This document shows positions 12,120-35,155 of a DNA stretch of 64,000 nucleotides, in pieces (position 1 is the first letter of the stretch; each line of letters begins with the position of its first letter). The DNA is from Nymphaea colorata (taxonomy: Eukaryota > Streptophyta > Magnoliopsida > Nymphaeales > Nymphaeaceae), in NCBI RefSeq assembly GCF_008831285.2, contig NC_045142.1:8162713-8226712 (forward strand). The letters are read 5' to 3'. The notes under the pieces were generated by a model, which was not told the DNA's origin, ran no database searches, and saw only the letters and a program-made list of their open reading frames with translations. The translations under genes and the position numbers were made by a program.

Positions 12120-14012
12120 GAATAAAAATATTTTTGTAGAATCTTAGAGGTCTTGACTGTTCATCTGCAAAGAGGGAAACAGTGAGAGGTTTGCATGAAT
12201 TATATCTTAATTTGCTATTTTTATGATTGGATGTTTGTTCAAATGAAGTTTGACTAACATAAATGTAAAATGACCAAATTCACAATAATGATAAGCTTGC
12301 CTCACGAAAATAAAATAGCATGTATGATTGTGGGTTGGAATAGATCACATGTGGTTGTGTTAGCAGTTACCTTGGAGAAATTTTCAATTTTGATTAAATG
12401 CAGAATGAGAATTGCTAATATGGTTTTCGTGGGTATATATCCATGCAAACTATTTGATTTGATTTGGTTTACTAAAAAAACCTTTTTGATGTTAAAAAAA
12501 TCTGTCTCCAGTGGTGTTAATAGGTGAATTTAATGCAGTTAGAGGGATAGATGATAAAACTAGATGTGAACCTAATAAAGTGAGCTATTCATACTTTAAT
12601 GGGTTACTAACTGATGGTGGATTCATTGTGATACAGGACTCCAACAGCAAGTTATCTTGGTCGAACAATAGGAAAAGATGTGATAATGTCTGTGCTGTTT
12701 GGACTAGGTTTTGGTGAATAAAAAATTGTTGGGAAGAAGCATATGTAAATTTTCAGCTAAAGATGCTTCCTAGAACAAGTTCTTTAATTTGAAATCAATA
12801 ATACACAACATTGGGAAAAGCAGATATTTAGATTTTGTAATTGTTGGTTGGCTTGAGCAAATTGTGAAGATATAATTAGGAGAAGTAGGAAGGCTAGAAC
12901 TTGGTGATGTCCTATGATGCAACTATTGGAGAAGCTATAGTTCACTCATAAAAAATAGGCCTGGTGGAATAGAAGTGGCTATGTGATATTTTTCGGCCCT
13001 TTTTTTTTAAGCAAAAGTTAGAAAGAAATAAAAGAATGGTGGACAACACAAGTATATTTGACTTTGATTATGAATAGATATTAAGGGAAGAGCTTAATAA
13101 AACTCTCCTAGAAGAATATATTTTATGGAGACAGAAATCATGGTGCATTGGCTCAAAAGAGAGCTAAATTTAGCTTTTCCCAAGCTTATGTTGGGAATAA
13201 TAGGGTAAAAGGAAGATATCTGAGATTGCGATTCATATACAGGTTGAGCAAAACCATAGAAGCATTAATATGGTAAGGTGCACTGAATTTTAGATGAATT
13301 CTTCACTAATATTGATGCAAAAGGAGAATTATTCAATGACTCAAGTGATGGCCCAAGACTGAGTTGCAAAAGAGGGTTCCACATGACGAGGTGATCAAGA
13401 AAGCATTCTTTATAATGAAGAATGCAAAAGCACTAGATCTAGATGAGTTCAATTCTAACTTTTTTAAGAAATATTGGCATGTGGTCAGCAAGGATGTCAC
13501 TTTGGTGATGAAAACCTTTTTTTTACCAATGAAGTGGTTAAATCATTTAGCATATCACACACCTTTCATTCATTGATCCCAAAGTTTCCAGACTCTAGCA
13601 ATATACAAGTCTTTTGACCTATGTCTTTTATAATGGAATTTACAAGGCAATTATTAAATTGATTGTAAACATGACAATACCAGTTCTAGATAGGATCATT
13701 GGTTACAAGCAGGTGCCTTCTTGCTAAACAGAAATATACATGAACATATTCATTTTGTGCATGAAGTTGTGAATAGCTTTTGTAATAGTAGATACGGCAA
13801 TCCCTTCTCCAAAAGTTGGGTCATCAGTCATCCAAAGGTGTACAATAAGGTTGGATGGTCGTTTCTTAGTGCTGCTCTTAGTCACTCGAGATTTGGAGAA
13901 GAATGGGCGAAAAAGATTATGAAAAATTATGAAGTGCATCATCCCTTCATCCTTTGCGTCGGTGATAAATGGGAGAGAAGTCATGTCAAAGTGGGGATTC
14001 GTTAAGGAGATC
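12120..14012 (+). pseudogene. L1-type LINE ORF2 remnant, 5' part (endonuclease and RT)
   Basis: A broken non-LTR retrotransposon pol read across several frames. The endonuclease starts near 12,135 (a WN-RGL-like start, then KRETVRGLHE); LIGEFNAVRG (GDFN with D changed to E) lies near 12,514 and LSWSNNRKR near 12,654. The reverse transcriptase follows: NAKALDLDEFNSNFFKKYWH (13,417-13,476), a VLDRIIG block near 13,685, and KVYNKVGWSFLSAAL near 13,835. It ends at GIR-stop-GD (13,995-14,012), the GIRQGDP box of LINE RTs. Stops and frameshifts are frequent, so it is dead. The reading resumes at 19,118 beyond a nested copia element. The enzyme family copies its own RNA at nicked chromosomal DNA. 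Confidence 0.82.
14008..14012 (+). other. Target site duplication, left (AGATC)
   Basis: AGATC abuts the 5' LTR and is repeated at 19,118-19,122 after the 3' LTR. Confidence 0.9.
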
Positions 14013-14289
14013 TGTTGAAACGGTTCTACAGGAGGCCCGTTATGGCAACACTATTCATGGTATTTCCATGATATTAAAAGTTCCTCAACATGGATTGCCA
14101 TTAATTTTTCTTTCCATGATTTCTTGCTTTGTAACTTTTGTACTCACTCACGTTAAATAGTGATTGTAAAGTGAAACAATGATATAGAGAAAATATACAA
14201 TACGAGCTCTCCCTTGCTTCTCGTGGATGTAGGCATACATGCCAAACCACGTATATTCTGTGTTTTCTCATTCCTCTTCCTAATATTTA
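14013..14289 (+). repeat. 5' LTR of nested copia element
   Basis: 277 bp, starting TGTTGAAACGG and ending TTTA directly before the primer-binding site. It matches 18,819-19,117 throughout but lacks about 22 bp (near 14,071) present in the 3' LTR. The end is TA in place of the usual CA. Confidence 0.93.
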
Positions 14290-14301
14290 TGGTATCAGAG
14301 C
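14290..14301 (+). promoter_or_regulatory. Primer-binding site for initiator tRNA-Met
   Basis: TGGTATCAGAGC starts one base after the 5' LTR. This is the standard minus-strand primer site of plant copia elements. Confidence 0.9.
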
Positions 14302-14507
14302 CAGGTTCCTATTGAAAGGGAGTATTCCATGTCGTCCACTGCTTAACAGCATTTGTTGTTTTCTAAAGGCTCCGTTGATCGGAGGTGTTGCCGGAAAAAC
14401 GGCATTTATTTCATTGCGGGAGGCTCAGCAGAAACCAGAGTATATCTCTGTGATCGATTTGGGGGAAGCCCCAATTTCTGGCGAAGGAGAATCTTTAACG
14501 CTGCTGG

Positions 14508-14880
14508 ACTGTTCTACTGTAAACAAAGACTGTGATTTCCAGCAATATTCAGACGGGGCACATTTCTTCTTGGAGGCTCCATTGGGGCTGATTTTTGGTG
14601 TGTCCTTTCCCCTTCATCTTGTCGATCTTCAGTCCAAATTTCAAGGCAAACAGAGGTCTGGTTGATTTTCTACAAATTTTTTATCATGAACGCCACCAGA
14701 GTACTATGTTCTACTATAACAGAGACTGTGATTTTCAGCAATATTCAGACGGGGCATATTTCTTCGTGGAGGCTCCATTGGGGCTGATTTTGGGGTGTCC
14801 CTTTTCCTTCATCTTGTCGACCTTCAGTCCAAATTTCAGGGCAAACGGAGGTCTGGGTGATTTTCTACAAATTTTTTAGT
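14508..14880 (+). repeat. 196-bp tandem duplication in the copia leader
   Basis: Two head-to-tail units between the primer site and gag share GACTGTGATTT, CAGCAATATTCAGACGGGGC and TGATTTTCTACAAATTTTTT. ACTGTGATTT begins at 14,529 and 14,725. The units differ at scattered bases. Confidence 0.88.
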
Positions 14881-15065
14881 GTCGCTATATCCTGAGTATC
14901 ACCAGAAGACTTCTATGAGACGCGCGACTGCAAATTCAGTAGGAAGCAGAGTTTTGTCCCTTCCATCTAATTCCAGGTTCGTGCGATATTGAAGGTTTCT
15001 CTCATCAGGTTATCATGGCAACTAGCTGTCGGTCACAAGGAGCAGGGGATTGGCCTCAGCAGTAG

Positions 15066-15590
15066 TTGTCGGACAGTGTCAATCCTACACTCAAAATCAC
15101 CATTGAATCCTTAAATGGGTTCAATTATATTAGCTGGACAAAATCTGCTAATCTTTTTCTAAGCGGAATGTCTAGACTCAGTCACGTCACCGGCAACAAA
15201 CCAAAGCCTGCTGAGAATGATCCGAAATTTGTTGAATGGGAATCAAACGACCACACTGTCATGTCGTGGCTCTTAAATTCCATGGAGAAAAAAATTGCTC
15301 GTGGATTCTTTTTTCTTGAAACTACCAAAGATGTGTGGGAGGCAGCTTGTGATCTCTACAGCCAGCAATACAATATCACTCGATGTTTTCAATTAGCGCA
15401 AGAAATCAGCAAGCTCAAACAAGGAGATATGACCTTCACAGAATATCTAGGACAACTTCGCACCTTATGAGATGAATGAGAATCCTATACCCCTGTAGCC
15501 GACACAAGGCAGCTCAAGCTTTTCACGATGATCAGAAAGATACTCTGGTGACCATGGAAAAGCTGACCCAATTTTTACAGAATTTTGTGA
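15066..15590 (+). pseudogene. copia gag remnant
   Basis: An open stretch of 134 codons begins at 15,066 and shows the copia Gag layout: NGFNYISWTKSANLFLSG near residue 17, VMSWLLNSMEKKI near 65, and TKDVWEAACDLYSQ near 86, followed by the LAQEISKLKQGDMTFTEYL helix. It stops at 15,468. The frame then drifts and the expected C-terminal half with its CCHC zinc knuckle is missing before the protease at about 15,600, so a deletion lies here. Gag proteins package element RNA in cytoplasmic particles; this one cannot. Confidence 0.82.
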
Positions 15591-15597
15591 GCTATCC

Positions 15598-16100
15598 TTG
15601 CCACTAACAAAAGTGGTGATGATGCAGGTACGTGCAACTTTTTTGTCTTGTTTAGACGAGAAAACTTGGATAATAGATTCTAGTGCATCAGACAATATGG
15701 CTGGTTCCAAAAAAATTTTAACCAACATTGAAGGTGTCTCTTATATGAAACCTATTTCTATAGCTAATGAGGGCAAGGTTAGCATCACATGAAAGAGAGT
15801 TACACAATTTTTTGAGAAGAAGGGTCATATTGATGTTTTATATATGCCTCATTTGGCTTCCAATCTCATGTTTGTCAGTAAGATAACCAAGACTTACAAC
15901 TGTAATGTTTTTTTGCCCTCAAAGGTTGTGTTTCAGGATCAGATCACTGGGAAGACGATTGGTGAAGGGGACGAATTTCGCAGTCTCTATTACTTGAATG
16001 GCAGAAATAAGGCACTTGCTACCACTACAAACAAGACTGAAGGAGAAAAATAGCATTTGAGGTTGGGGCATCCATCAACACAGGCTTCTACCGGATATTT
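15598..16100 (+). pseudogene. copia protease and GAG-pre-integrase remnant
   Basis: WIIDSSASDNM (near 15,669) is the aspartic protease box, with the Gly of DSGA changed to Ser. MPHLASNLMFVSKI (from 15,846) follows in the same order as in other copia elements, after one stop at 15,790. HLRLGHPST (16,054-16,080) is the start of the pre-integrase zinc-binding region. Copia sequence on this strand then ends abruptly where the inverted segment starts. Confidence 0.82.
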
Positions 16101-16790
16101 AACCATACTGCTCATAGCAAAATCTTTGTATCGTTTGGGCTATTGGCGAAGTCTTTCCGAGCGCCGAAGAATGTTCTCTTGATGTCTCTTAGTTGCAGTA
16201 ACTTGCCGGGAATGATGTTGTCGAATCCTTTCCGATCGCCGCAGGGTATTTTTTGGTTGTGTTTCAGTTGCAGTGATTTGTCGTGAGTCACTATCAACTC
16301 TTTCAATGATAGGAGTGGTATCTTCATTATTTTGTACTTGAATAGAAACTTTACCATTCTCAACGTGAGACATAGGAAAAACAATAGGAAGAGGGAGATG
16401 CTGAAATTTTGAGTTTATTTTCTCCCTTTGAGGATGAACTCAAGTCTCCCCCTGAGGTCGATTTTCAAAATATGCTTGCGACTCATCAAATTTAACATCA
16501 CGAGATATATACATTTTCCTTGAAGCCACATCAAAGCATCTATACCCTTTCTTGGTAGGAAATATCTGAGAAACACACATTTTATGGCACGAGGCTGTAA
16601 CTTGTTTCGATGTTTTGGAGATTTCCAAACATAAACAATGCATCCAAACTTTCTAACATGATCAATAGTGTGTTTCATTCCTTTAAGAACTTCAATGAGG
16701 GATCTATTTTCAAGATAGCGTCTTTGTTGCCTATTTATAATATAGTTGGCTGCTTTCCCTCAAACTCAGACAGCCTTTTTCATGCAATTA
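16100..16790 (-). pseudogene. Inverted segment: integrase tail and pre-RT spacer of the copia element
   Basis: Inside a plus-strand element, this stretch encodes copia protein only on the minus strand. Reading down from 16,790: GKAANYIINR (end of the integrase core), HVRKFGCIVYVW, KGYRCFDVASRKMYISRDV near 16,530, then RRSERIRQ and RRSERLRQ typical of the spacer before RT. The plus strand picks up again at 16,791 with the start of RT. The segment is where it belongs in the element but flipped. The integrase catalytic core between HPST and GKAANY is absent. Confidence 0.85.
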
Positions 16791-18135
16791 AACGAAGCCT
16801 CTGAACCAGGGACATTTGAAGATGTTGTTCAAGATCCTTGTTAGAAAAACGCCATAAGAGAAGAACTAGATGCTCTAACAAAAAATGACACATGGTAACT
16901 TGTCTCTCTTCCTCCAGGTAAAAAACATGGTAGTTGCAAATGGGATTTTAAACCGAAATTTCATAGTGATGAAACTCTTGAAAGACATAAAGCTCGTCTT
17001 GTTGCTCGCGGCTTCTCTCAAACAGAAGGGATTGACTATACAAAAACATTTGCTCCAGTGGCAAAGATGACAACTCTTTGTACCCTTATATCTATTGCCT
17101 GCAATCATGAGTGGGATTTATTTCAGTTTGATGTAAAGAATGCTTTTCTTCAGGGTGATTTACAGGAAGAAGTCTACATGAAAATTCCTCAAGGCCTCAA
17201 TTATGAAAACCAGAAAAATCTTGTTTGTAATTTGAAGAAGTCGATCTATGGACTTAAACAATCCCTGTGAGCTTGGTACTCAAGGCTCAGTTCTGCCTTG
17301 ATCGATTTTGGGTACAAACGCAGTGTTTCAGACAACTCTTTATTCATTCATCATTACTAAAATAAATTTTTTTTTGTTCTTGTTTATGTGGGTGATATTG
17401 TCATCACAAGCGATTCCAAGAATATAGTTGAGAAGACAAAATGATATCTCCATCAATAGTTCGAGATAAAAGATGTTGGAAGATTGAAATACTTCCTAGG
17501 AATAGAGGTAAGTCACTCCAAGAAAGGTTTATATTTATTCCAACGAAAATATGCTCTTGATCTATTGAAGGAAATAAGGAAACCTAGAGTGAAGGCAGCA
17601 GTCACACCAATAGAGGTAAATTACAAACTTCACAAGATAGATCGTGAAGAACCAGTACAAGATGCAAAACAATATCAACATATTGTTGGAAAATTGATAT
17701 ATTTGACTTTTACAAGGCCTAACATTACCTATGCATTTAGTGAAGTTAGCAAATATATGCATGCCCCCCAATGAGCTCATTTCTCTGCTATTGATAGAAT
17801 TTTAAGGTACTTAAAAGAAGCTCCAGGACGTGGTATTTGGATGAAGCAAAATGGAAATATCGATATAGAAGGTTTCTCATATGCAGACTGGGCTGGAAGT
17901 GTATCAGAAAGAAAGTCAACTACATAGTTTTGTGTTATGGTTGGGGACAATTTGGTCTCATGGAAGAGTAAAAAATAGAAAGTGATTTCAAGATCCTGCG
18001 CCGAGGCTGAATATAGAGCAATGACAAACACTAAATGTGAATTCATTTGGCTCAAAGCGATGCTAAAAGAAATAGGCTTTGAACAACCTGTCCTATGAAG
18101 TTGTCATGTGATAATTAAGCTGCAATACATATAGC
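16791..18135 (+). pseudogene. copia reverse transcriptase and RNase H remnant
   Basis: RT motifs in order: KARLVARGFSQTEGIDYTKT near 17,010, FDVKNAFLQGDLQEEVY near 17,128, KSIYGLKQSL near 17,240, YVGDIVIT near 17,384 (the catalytic YVDD with Asp changed to Gly), GRLKYFLGIEV near 17,476, and GKLIYLTFTRPNI near 17,690. RNase H follows: YADWAGS near 17,880, VSWKSKK near 17,957 and AEAEYRAM near 18,004. Several in-frame stops and frame changes interrupt it. Inactive. Confidence 0.88.
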
Positions 18136-18831
18136 CGCAAACTCAGTCTTTCATGAAAGGACAAAACATATTGAAATTGATTGTCACTTTATACGCGACA
18201 AGGTTCAAAACAAAGAAATCATCACTCCTTTTGTCAGAAGTGAAGTGAGGAGCAATATGTTGATATCTTCACCAAAGCAGTTATGAGAGAAAAACTTAGA
18301 AGCACTATGATCAAGTTGGGAGTCGTTAACATACACTCCCAACTTGAGGGGGGAGTATTGAAACGGTTCCCGCAAACTCAGTCTTTCATGAAAGGACAAA
18401 GCATATTGAAATTGATTGTCACTTTATACGCGACAAGGTTCAAAACAAAGAAATCATCACTCCTTTTGTCAGAAGTGAAGTGAGGAGCAATATGTTGATA
18501 TCTTCACCAAAGCAGTTATGAGAGAAAAACTTAGAAGCACTATGATCAAGTTGGGAGTCGTTAACATACACTCCCAACTTGAGGGGGAGTATTGAAACGG
18601 TTCCCGCAAACTCAGTCTTTCATGAAAGGACAAAGCATATTGAAATTGATAGTTACTTTATACGCGACAAGGTTCAAAACAAAGAAATCATCACTCCTTT
18701 TGTCAGAAGTGAGGAGCAATATGCTGATATCTTCACCAAAGCAGTTATGAGAGAAAAACTTAGAAGCACTATGATCAAGTTGGGAGTCGCTAACATACAC
18801 TCCCAACTTGAGGGGGAGTGTTGAAACGGTT
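18136..18831 (+). repeat. Three tandem copies of the copia 3' end, running into the LTR
   Basis: Three units of about 234-235 bp begin at CGCAAACTCAGTCTTTCATG near 18,136, 18,371 and 18,605. Each holds the RNase H tail, the polypurine tract and the first 14 or so bases of the LTR (TATTGAAACGGTTC in units 1 and 2, TGTTGAAACGGTTC in unit 3). Units 1 and 2 share a 6-bp insertion (GAAGTG) that breaks the frame; unit 3 lacks it and still reads SEEQYADIFTKAV. Confidence 0.9.
18810..18818 (+). promoter_or_regulatory. Polypurine tract of nested copia element
   Basis: GAGGGGGAG directly precedes the 3' LTR and is where plus-strand priming starts. Two further copies sit in the tandem units upstream (about 18,346-18,355 and 18,581-18,589). 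Confidence 0.88.
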
Positions 18832-19117
18832 CTACAAGAGGCTCGTTATGACAACGCCTATTCATGGTATTTCCATGATTAGTTGGATGGTGTTACCTAT
18901 TTTAAAAGTTGCCCACCATGGATTGCCGTTAATTTTTCTTTCCATGATTTCTTGCTTTGTAACTGTTGTATTCACTCACATTCAATAGTGACTGTAGAGT
19001 GAAACAATGATATAAAGAAAATATACAATACGAGCTCTCCCTTGCTTCTTGTGGACATAGGCATACATGCCGAACCATGTATATTCTGTGTTTTCTCATT
19101 CCTCTCCCTAATCTTTA
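18819..19117 (+). repeat. 3' LTR of nested copia element
   Basis: 299 bp, starting TGTTGAAACGG straight after the polypurine tract and ending CTTTA directly before the AGATC target duplicate. Confidence 0.93.
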
Positions 19118-19122
19118 AGATC
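19118..19122 (+). other. Target site duplication, right (AGATC)
   Basis: Second copy of AGATC. Keeping only one copy restores the GD-P-L reading of the LINE RT. Confidence 0.9.
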
Positions 19123-20787: not shown

Positions 20788-21653
20788 TCATGTCCAAAGG
20801 ATATCAAAGAGGGAACCAATACTAGCATCAGCGAAATTTCCCTGCTGGAGGTAGGGTTGGCAAGCTATGTCATTGGATGCTACAAACATCTCGGTTGGTT
20901 GGAACGTGGGTTCTTTCGACTCTGTCTTCTGCATGCACAACAGAGCTGCCAAATGCGCTTGCTGGTTCCGCATGTTGTGGATCTTAGCTTTCGCCGCAGC
21001 CAACTGCGATTGTAGCTCGCTCAGTTGCTTCTGCAACTGAAAGATCGTCCCAGCACAACCATATACACGATTACTGCTTCGGGCATTTGCTTCATAAACC
21101 AAGCTGCTCGCTGCATCTGCTCTCTGCGACTGCGGAACTTCCTGAACAAAACACCAAACATTAATTCAACATAGTTAAAAAGAAGATCTGGGCCTGATTC
21201 CTTAAAATTCGATACTTTGAATTGTGAAGAGATATTCACCAAAAGTATGTTGAGATTTCACAAATTCACATACACTCAAGCCAAAATTAATCGGAATTTG
21301 TTGTGTTAGATTGTAAGGCTTTAGTTTACTATATTCGAATCCAGTGCTTGCTTACTGAAAGTATGGTGGTCTAACATGTTTCATGCAGCCAAAAGAAGTA
21401 GAAGAGGAGGGCGAACTATTGAAATACCCACCTGGAGGAGCTTGACGATATTGCTAGCACCAAAGACCCGATGAGCCGTAATGAACTTTTGGGGTTCTGA
21501 CGGGGGAAAGTAGGGTGCCAAGGCGCACTGTTTGGAACAACGACGCCGAAGGACCTTGCAAGCGGCACAGGGAGAGGCAATGGGTAGTGGCTTTGGGGAA
21601 GACGGTGAAGAAGAGGAAGGAAATGTATTAAATGGATGATCAGCCGATTGCAT
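20788..21653 (-). CDS. LOB-domain (LBD) transcription factor, class I, copy 1; two exons
   Basis: Two exons: 21653-21432 (74 codons) and 21141-20788 (117 codons plus TGA), joined across a 290-bp GT-AG intron (21431-21142) in phase 0, giving 191 residues. The start is the ATG at 21653; upstream in-frame sequence lacks family similarity. Visible: the CX2CX6CX3C zinc-finger-like block (Cys29, 32, 39, 43), the GAS block (FGASNIVKLL) ending at the exon junction, and in exon 2 the LX6LX3LX6 zipper-like spacing (LQKQLSELQSQL, last position Ile). These mark class I LBD proteins, nuclear DNA-binding regulators of plant organ boundaries and lateral organs. The sequence is nearest in style to the LBD1/LBD11 group. 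Odd: the usual DP before VYGCAG is NR here. It is a paralogue of the gene at 51748-52926. Gene identity is secure; subgroup and activity are inferred. Confidence 0.92.
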
Positions 21654-21747
21654 CTTCTCACAGGCAAAGGAAGGGAGCTCTTTGGGTTTTGGTAGGAGAA
21701 GAGAAAGGAAAGCTGGGGTTGCCACGATGAAGTCCAAACTCAAAGAA

Positions 21748-21756
21748 TTTATATAG
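21748..21756 (-). promoter_or_regulatory. TATA box of LBD copy 1
   Basis: The minus strand reads CTATATAAA about 95 bp upstream of the ATG at 21653. A GGAA microsatellite (21792-21813) lies just upstream. Position and sequence fit a plant TATA box; use is inferred. Confidence 0.6.
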
Positions 21757-22084
21757 GGCCGGCTAAGGGTAGAACCATCACGTGTGGTAACCGAAGGAAG
21801 GAAGGAAGGAAGGAGAGAGTTTTTGAAAGTCTTAACGCCACCCCCCATCAGATGATCTACTCAACGTTTAAAACCCAGCTATGTCGGCAGGGTTGTTTAC
21901 GGGCCAGCTTCTTTGATTCTCAACTTTCGCGGCAATCGCCTTATTTAAGAAAATAATTTTTTTTCTCGAATTTATCCGTGTGTATATATATATATAGAAA
22001 CTTATTTCCTTACAAAATGTTATCTGAACCATCATTGTGGATGACCAAGATGAATAAAAGGCAAATAACAAAGAAAAGATGGAG

Positions 22085-22793: not shown

Positions 22794-23095
22794 TTATTTC
22801 ATTATCTCATAAATATTTAATTATCTTATAAATATTATTTGATACTTATGTTTAAAATTACCTCGTACATCTATCTATTTTCTCATAAACATTATCTCAT
22901 ATTTATGTTTAGCATTACCTCATACATCGGTCTATCATTTCATTATCTCATAAATATTTTGTTATCTCATAAACATCATCTCATAATTATATGTATCGTT
23001 ATGTCATACATTCATCCGTCCATTATTTCATTATCTCATAAATCTTTTGTTATATCTTAAACATTATCTCATACTTATTTGTTATCTTATGGATA
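22794..23095. repeat. Satellite-like imperfect array of CATTATCTCATAAAT units
   Basis: Degenerate units of 66-88 bp built from TTTCATTATCTCATAAATATT and ATTATCTCATA words. CATTATCTCATA starts at 22,800, 22,941 and 23,029. The same core word is found in both orientations at 34,931-35,155. Confidence 0.75.
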
Positions 23096-23534
23096 TGCAG
23101 ATGCAATGTTTGGACATAAAAATAAATGTGCATAATATTAGTAGGGTTCACATTCGATATACATTTGTTACATAGATCAGAGCAGTGTATAGAACTCAAT
23201 CTCTTCCGTCAGATGGCACTCTACAATATGATAGAGCCTTAGTGGGGGGGGGGAAGGGAGTTCGGGGCAAAGATGGAGACTAAATAAATAAATAAAATGG
23301 ACAGCTTTAGGGCCATCCGTCAATCAAAAATTAATGGATTTGGTGTTCACTAATTTGGTGTTTATCTGCGTCCCAATAGAACTCCACGCTGGGGGTCCTG
23401 ATGCGCTCAGTTGAGGAAGGGATGAAGAGACTCGGAGAGAGAAAAGCATACTAAAAAATAAATAAATAAATAAAATGTACAACACTATAGCCGTCCGATC
23501 AATCTCATTTCATGGGCAAAAAATTATCGTTAAC

Positions 23535-25660: not shown

Positions 25661-27620
25661 TGACTCCCCCTCAAACTGGAGTGTGGAGGTTCAGAACACC
25701 CAGTTTGTTTAGTAAATGATGGAATGCCTCTCGTCTAAGTGCCTTAGTAAATAGATCGGCCAAATTGGTCCTTTCTGCGAATGTAACATGTTAATATTAT
25801 TCCTTGAAGCAGTTTTTCTCGAACGACATGACAATCTAGCTCAATGTGTTTTTTTTATCGCACAGAACAGTAATGGGTTGTGTTTGATTTACTTCTAGAT
25901 CATGTAATAAATTCTTCAACCAAGTAATCTCGCACACCATGTTAGCCATTGACTTGTATTCAGCTTCGGTGGATGTTTAGGACACAGTTTGCTGCTGCGA
26001 CTGAGCACCTCGGCTTTTGACACGCTACCTAATCTGAGTGACAGAATGCACTTAGGTGCATATTGTTTTGTTTGCTCATTAGAATGTCTTGTCCATGGTT
26101 CAACTTGAGTTCTGTCCACAGAATGCACTTAGGACATGCACAGTGAACTGTATATCCGATCGAGTAATGCTGAGATAAATCAACCTTCCTGCTAGATGAC
26201 GATAATGAGTAGAGTCTTGGCCACGCCTTGGCTCCATTGAAAATTCAACTGGTTTGGCTTTCAAAAGACCTGCTTCTTGAACAATATCCAACACATATTT
26301 TTGTTGTGATAGATAGCCCTTAGATGAGCAAGCAATTTCAATACCTAGAAAACAATTTGGCTTTCCCATGTCCTTCATGTGAAATTTTTTGGCAAAGGAA
26401 GGGCTTGAACTTCATAGCGTAAGCTTCTGCATTTCCTACAATTAATAAATCATCAACATATGTCAAAACAGCAAAAAAAATATTACCTTGTCAATACATG
26501 AACAAGGAATAATCTGCCTTAGATTGGATGAATCCAAATTCTTCTAGGGTTGTTGAGTGTTTGTGGAACCAGTTTTGCGGAGACTGCTTCAAGCCATAAA
26601 GTTAATCTATTTACACACTTGTTTCTCCCCCCGTTTGGTATATCCTGGTGGCACCTACATGTAGACTTCTTCTTGGATATTGCCATGTAAAAAAGTCATT
26701 GCTCACATCCATCTGGCATAAAATCCCATCGTCCTTGGTAGCAATTGTCAGAGGCATTCGAACTATTACAATTTTCACGACTGGTGCAAACGTCTCATTA
26801 TAATCGATGCCATCTTGCTAGAAGTAACCCTTGGCCATTAATCTAACTTCATAGCATTCTATAAATCCATTCAAGTGGTATTTTATTTTATATACCCATT
26901 TACACCTGAGTAACGTCATTCCTCTAGGGAGGTCTACCAAAATCTAGGTCTTGTTTTCTTGTAATGCACATACTTCAGTATCCATTGCGTCTCGCCATTC
27001 TTTATGCTTGATTGCTTCTTCAAAACTCTTTGGTTCTACCATGGCAATCAGAGATGAGAGAAAAGCCTCATGTCCAATAGAAAAGTGTTGGAAAGATACT
27101 ACCTTGGACAATGGGTACGAGTACCTTCTTTATGTCCTAGTGTGAAACTGTGATTGGCTGAGGGTGATGCAATCCAGGAGCAATAGAAATCATTCAACAA
27201 GGTAGTCGGTTTTCTAGTACATCATGTGGATCTCCTAATGGACTCAGTTGTCATTGGGTTTGATCCTCCTATTTGAGTGTTGTCAAGTATCTATTGGTGA
27301 GGATCTAGACTCGCCTAAATGAGTGTGCTCTAGGTGATTTTGACATGGTTCTAAATGAATGCTTGGATCCACGTTTGGATCTGATCTAGGGTTGATCGGT
27401 TGACTAGAAACATAGTCTTCTTCTTGAGTGTAAGGCATAGGCAAGACTATCTTGTTTTTCTCTTATTTTTATTTTGAAATGGAAAAATCTGTTCATAAAA
27501 AATGAAGTCATTAGTAGAAAAAACTTTGTGTTTCTAAATCATAAACTTTGTAAGCTTTTTGGCCATCTATGATTTAGGGCTCTCTATTTCTACTATATAT
27601 CAAGGACTATTTTCTGTTTC
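25661..27620 (-). pseudogene. Minus-strand Ty1-copia pol relic, 5' truncated
   Basis: Reading from 27,620 downward: the spacer before RT (KAYKVYDLET near 27,560), the RT start (WRDAMDTE-like near 26,990), the FLHGN/EEVY block near 26,670, an intact YVDDLLIVG near 26,455, then the long open stretch 26,378-26,100 with KDMGKPNCFLGIEIA and AGRLIYLSITRSDIQF. RNase H is cut down: after HVLSAF the text jumps to AEYKSMANMVCEITW-like sequence near 25,930, then ITVLCDKK near 25,865 and LADLFTKAL-like near 25,745. Gag, protease and integrase core are gone. Frameshifts are frequent. A target duplication cannot be sought because the 5' end is lost. Confidence 0.85.
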
Positions 27621-34930: not shown

Positions 34931-35155
34931 CATTATCTCAAACCTCTATTGTTATTTCATACCCATTATCTCATACTCATGCCATTATCTCATATCCATA
35001 ACATTTAAGCTAATCGCAGGAGGTGGTATGAAATAATAGTGGGGCATGAGATAATGACAAGGGTATGAGATAATGGGTATGAGATAATGACCAATGTATG
35101 ACATAAAAACAAATGTATGAGATAATGGTAGGGGTATGAAATAATGACATGAGCG
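34931..35155. repeat. Foldback array of the CATTATCTCATA word
   Basis: CATTATCTCATA-type words run forward at 34,931-35,000 and as the complement (TATGAGATAATG) at 35,026-35,155, with about 25 bp between. The transcript or single strand could fold on itself. Non-coding. Confidence 0.75.

Follow-up and report, generated by a model that had tools for sequence, protein, structure and literature searches.

The 3' end of a decayed retrotransposon in Nymphaea colorata is present three times in tandem, which raises the question of whether the array was inserted with the element or was formed afterwards in the chromosome. The window analysed here is a stretch of 64,000 nucleotides (contig NC_045142.1, positions 8,162,713 to 8,226,712 of the forward strand), and the coordinates given below refer to this window.

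The host element

The array is part of a decayed LTR retrotransposon, which occupies 14008-19122 on the plus strand. Two copies of the target-site duplication AGATC were found at its ends, one at 14008-14012 abutting the start of the 5' LTR and the other at 19118-19122 directly after the 3' LTR; both LTRs come from one insertion because these flanks match. The 5' LTR (277 bp, 14013-14289, plus strand) starts with TGTTGAAACGGTTCTACA and was aligned to the 3' LTR (299 bp, 18819-19117, plus strand), the first 14 bp of which are also the end of the third array unit. A 21-bp block of the 3' LTR (about 18878-18898) is missing from the 5' LTR (about 14071). The sequence directly 3' of the 5' LTR is TGGTATCAGAGCC, and the primer binding site at this place (14290-14306, plus strand) reads TGGTATCAGAGCCAGGT, which we take to resemble the complement of the end of the initiator tRNA-Met.

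A Pfam scan was performed on 11 of the 41 stop-to-stop pieces (at least 50 residues, both strands) over the element. On the plus strand, a gag fragment (15066-15467) matched Retrotran_gag_3 (PF14244, E 2.8e-07, above the curated cut-off), and reverse transcriptase fragments with stop codons between them (16899-17771) matched RVT_2 (PF07727). The RVT_2 match at 16899-17267 had an E value of 1.1e-35, and the one at 17460-17771 (E 5.5e-04) was under the curated cut-off, as were two weak Pol_BBD matches (E 0.034 and 0.0015). An integrase SH3-like domain (PF25597, E 6.7e-13) lies at 16415-16759, upstream of the RVT_2 region starting at 16899, yet on the minus strand; no match to the integrase core was found among the 11 pieces scanned. 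Four pieces from 17775-18821 were compared with Pfam, of which three had no match at E 1 and the fourth had a weak, unrelated match to YmgB (E 0.0051, under the cut-off). An RNase H following the reverse transcriptase is presumed from its position and from characteristic motifs.

The host element is a Ty1/copia-type LTR retrotransposon. Similar to the plant Ty1/copia elements (Pseudoviridae), it contains copia-type gag, integrase SH3-like and RVT_2 pieces, with the integrase piece before the reverse transcriptase, and also has LTRs, a primer binding site, a polypurine tract and a 5-bp target-site duplication; whereas its decay, the inverted integrase segment and the triplicated 3' end set it apart from them. 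A Ty3/gypsy identity of the Tat lineage was ruled out by the RVT_2 and copia-type gag matches. The minus-strand C-terminal part of the integrase, between the plus-strand gag and reverse transcriptase, represents an internal inversion of about 0.7-0.8 kb (about 16054-16880, with the ends estimated from the reading frames).

The array and the relationships of its units

Tandem Repeats Finder reported a tandem array at 18135-18832 with a period of 235, 3.0 copies, 97% matches and a score of 1310. Within the element, exact repeats spaced 20-399 bp apart reach 186 bp, whereas none in 50 order-1 resamples exceeded 13; chance is therefore excluded for the array. The triplication of the 3' end put forward in the original prediction is thus real, with 18135 as its first base instead of 18136. 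Each unit begins in the last part of the pol frame, crosses a GAGGGGG(G)AG tract and ends after 14 bp of the LTR head. The junction had also been placed inside the LTR start, and alignment of the units to the LTR agrees with this, locating it 14 bp in.

Unit 1 (235 bp, 18135-18369, plus strand) is the one continuous with pol; it includes the polypurine tract GAGGGGGGAG and the LTR head TATTGAAACGGTTC, and its pol end carries a frameshifting 5-bp tandem duplication. Unit 2 (234 bp, 18370-18603, plus strand) is like unit 1 except for one substitution and one G fewer, and its LTR head also reads TATTGAAACGGTTC. Unit 3 (229 bp, 18604-18832, plus strand) contains the polypurine tract GAGGGGGAG and the true LTR start, TGTTGAAACGGTTC; its reading frame is open up to a stop codon within the LTR head, at LTR positions 4-6. 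At the unit junctions, GGTTC of the LTR is joined to the upstream sequence CCGCAAAC, and no microhomology was found there, as no base is shared on either side of the break.

In the three-unit alignment, unit 3 stands apart from the other two at five substitutions and a 5-bp indel, and unit 1 is the odd one out at one substitution and an indel of one G; there is no column where this holds for unit 2. The extra 5 bp of units 1 and 2 (columns 103-107) are a tandem duplication that shifts the frame. An insertion shared by these two units had been correctly recognized in the original prediction, but was described there as a 6-bp GAAGTG. Their LTR head has TA where both LTRs of the element have TG, and the TA is therefore derived. 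Since units 1 and 2 are closest to each other and have derived changes in common (the LTR-head TA and the 5-bp duplication), they are sisters and one was copied from the other, in agreement with what had been proposed. Site 32 is the only substitution site at which unit 2 is like unit 3 and unlike unit 1; this pattern could stem from a crossover between sites 32 and 48, and just as well from a private change in unit 1.

Three candidate sites for plus-strand priming had been suggested to result from the array. The tracts are indeed present three times, but their use as priming sites is not supported, as the element is inactive. Stop codons occur throughout the pol region, the integrase segment is on the opposite strand, and the two inner LTR heads are without the terminal TG, which is used by integrases of this class. 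Three working priming sites are not expected, because the element is broken and its inner LTR heads do not have this TG. Moreover, the 5' LTR has its start where it is normally expected, abutting AGATC, and so the present insertion shows no sign of inner-tract priming. The three polypurine-like tracts are real, yet there is no reason to regard them as functional.

Age and origin of the array

The LTRs of an element are identical at insertion, and units that had been inserted together with the element should therefore be no less diverged than its LTRs. The LTR pair has 23 differences in 277 positions (K2P 0.089). By comparison, units 2 and 3 differ at 5/228 positions (0.022; Fisher p against the LTR pair 0.0029), units 1 and 3 at 6/228 (0.027; p 0.0067), and units 1 and 2 at 1/233 (0.004; p 8e-06), the three unit comparisons being mutually non-independent. 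The 95% binomial intervals of the LTRs (5.3-12.2%) and of units 2-3 (0.7-5.0%) do not overlap, and that of units 1-3 (1.0-5.6%) overlaps slightly with the LTR interval. Extra change in the LTRs driven by methylation was also considered. Transitions in CpG/CHG context account for 8 of the 23 LTR differences; when such transitions were excluded, the p values became 0.034 (units 2-3), 0.068 (units 1-3) and 0.0007 (units 1-2), which weakens the contrast between LTRs and units and leaves it good, not overwhelming.

Because the units are less diverged than the LTRs, the array is probably younger than the insertion. It most likely postdates the integration of the element and probably never passed through reverse transcription; its replication by that route, one outcome considered in the original prediction, is disfavoured by units that are far less diverged than the LTRs. 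The frame-breaking 5-bp duplication in unit 1, which is continuous with pol, also speaks for a post-insertion origin. Gene conversion between units could, however, make an older array seem young.

A second tandem duplication was found in the leader of the element (14510-14878, period 195, 1.9 copies). Its copies show 13/172 differences (15/187 with other boundaries), with a p value of 0.86 against the LTRs, and it is possibly of insertion age or older. This LTR-like divergence indicates that not every duplication in the element looks young.

We consider it highly probable that the pol end, polypurine tract and LTR head of a decayed Ty1/copia-type element were tandemly duplicated in the chromosome after the insertion. 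The first step would be a tandem duplication of chromosomal DNA across these three parts, and the lack of microhomology at the junction is compatible with repair of a break or with a chromosomal template switch at the wrong place. In the upstream copy, the 5-bp duplication and the change from TG to TA in the LTR head would then have arisen. A further duplication of this upstream copy, through slippage or an unequal crossover involving both units, would have been in register and would have produced the present order A, A', B. As to the choice of mechanism among break repair, slippage and unequal exchange, we infer rather than observe. Overall, the locus is a case of ordinary retrotransposon decay.

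Error-prone double-strand break repair is one proposed route to tandem duplications. As stated in an excerpt of PMC8355091, analysis of natural insertions in humans and plants hinted at this route, and Vaughn and Bennetzen 2014 is the source cited there for plants. The duplications studied in PMC8355091 itself are small (<100 bp per introduction) and were examined at induced breaks in cultured cells; whereas the unit of the present array is larger. For maize, an excerpt of PMC2686159 describes tandem arrays that change in size through unequal crossing over, as well as end joining with filler DNA.

Alternatively, reverse transcription itself might have produced the duplication, through a jump within or between templates close to the 3' end; the duplication would then have been inserted with the element and its units later homogenised by gene conversion. 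An abnormal strand transfer between co-packaged copies has been hypothesised for the Ogre-type 3' UTR arrays, according to part of PMC7004042. Moreover, with the stop codon at LTR positions 4-6, a duplication running from pol across the stop would be expected to keep the polyprotein intact. However, units 2-3 and 1-3 have only about one quarter to one third of the LTR divergence, where at least the LTR divergence would be expected without homogenisation, and the leader duplication in the same element does show LTR-like divergence; such an origin is considered unlikely. It is very unlikely that the array is older than the insertion, had passed through reverse transcription and has its age masked by homogenisation, in which case a copia lineage with two or three polypurine tract/LTR-head cassettes would exist or have existed. 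An assembly artefact adding one near-identical unit (1 or 2) is the least likely, for although these units are just one substitution and one homopolymer G apart, unit 3 shows 5 substitutions relative to unit 2, 6 relative to unit 1, and the 5-bp indel, so that at least two units are likely real.

Comparable arrays and the surrounding sequence

The array, taken as a post-insertion duplication, is probably private to this locus; its absence from other copies of the element is suggested by the divergence values. On both strands of the window, the 31-mers of the array are confined to the array itself. When the element was compared with the remainder of the window, a single 71-bp match (76%) was obtained, which belongs to a second copia-type reverse transcriptase remnant on the minus strand (26100-26408 and 26658-26728; RVT_2 E 6.3e-07, just under the curated cut-off). 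A collection of viral contigs, which holds no plant genomes and thus says little, gave five pattern matches and no confirmed relative for the 72-residue product of unit 3, and no match for the unit junction. Among the matches listed from the open-licence literature, judged by title and start of abstract, no copia element whose polypurine tract/LTR head is triplicated was found, which is no proof of absence.

The nearest published cases found, judged from excerpts, are the CRM1TR/CRM4TR repeats and the Tat/Ogre/Retand arrays, and the present array is smaller. CRM1TR and CRM4TR are tandem repeats that originated from LTR-UTR sequence of centromeric retrotransposons in maize, and intrastrand illegitimate recombination together with gene conversion was proposed by the authors for their origin (PMC3648361, in part). 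As in the present case, their tandem units cross the LTR-UTR boundary of a single retrotransposon; whereas the excerpt describes long arrays of Ty3/gypsy origin in the centromere or pericentromere, and the array here has three units, is of Ty1/copia origin and spans the boundary of the pol end and 3' LTR. The 3' arrays of the Tat/Ogre/Retand elements also consist of repeats in tandem, situated between pol and the 3' LTR. However, in the portions of PMC11963269 and PMC7004042 dealing with them, they occur in many element copies and lie in the region from pol to the 3' LTR; in contrast, the units here include coding sequence, the polypurine tract and the LTR head, and seem of more recent origin than the insertion.

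Taken alone, the array is of little import, as one further case of a dead retrotransposon with a local tandem duplication. It provides a small example of the LTR clock being used to date a duplication within an element, and shows how a retrotransposon end might begin to turn into a tandem repeat. If the array were common to several insertions, it would bear on how far extra polypurine tracts are tolerated in reverse transcription.

Other features were observed near the element. About 1.7 kb past its right end, pieces of a LOB domain (PF03195) are located on the minus strand (20788-21848), where two open frames jointly cover most of the domain. LOB proteins are not known outside plants, and these pieces mark the host as a plant. 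Moreover, degenerate repeats of the ATTATCTCATA type form two clusters, at 22795-23099 and 34964-35149, and the second cluster contains them in both orientations.
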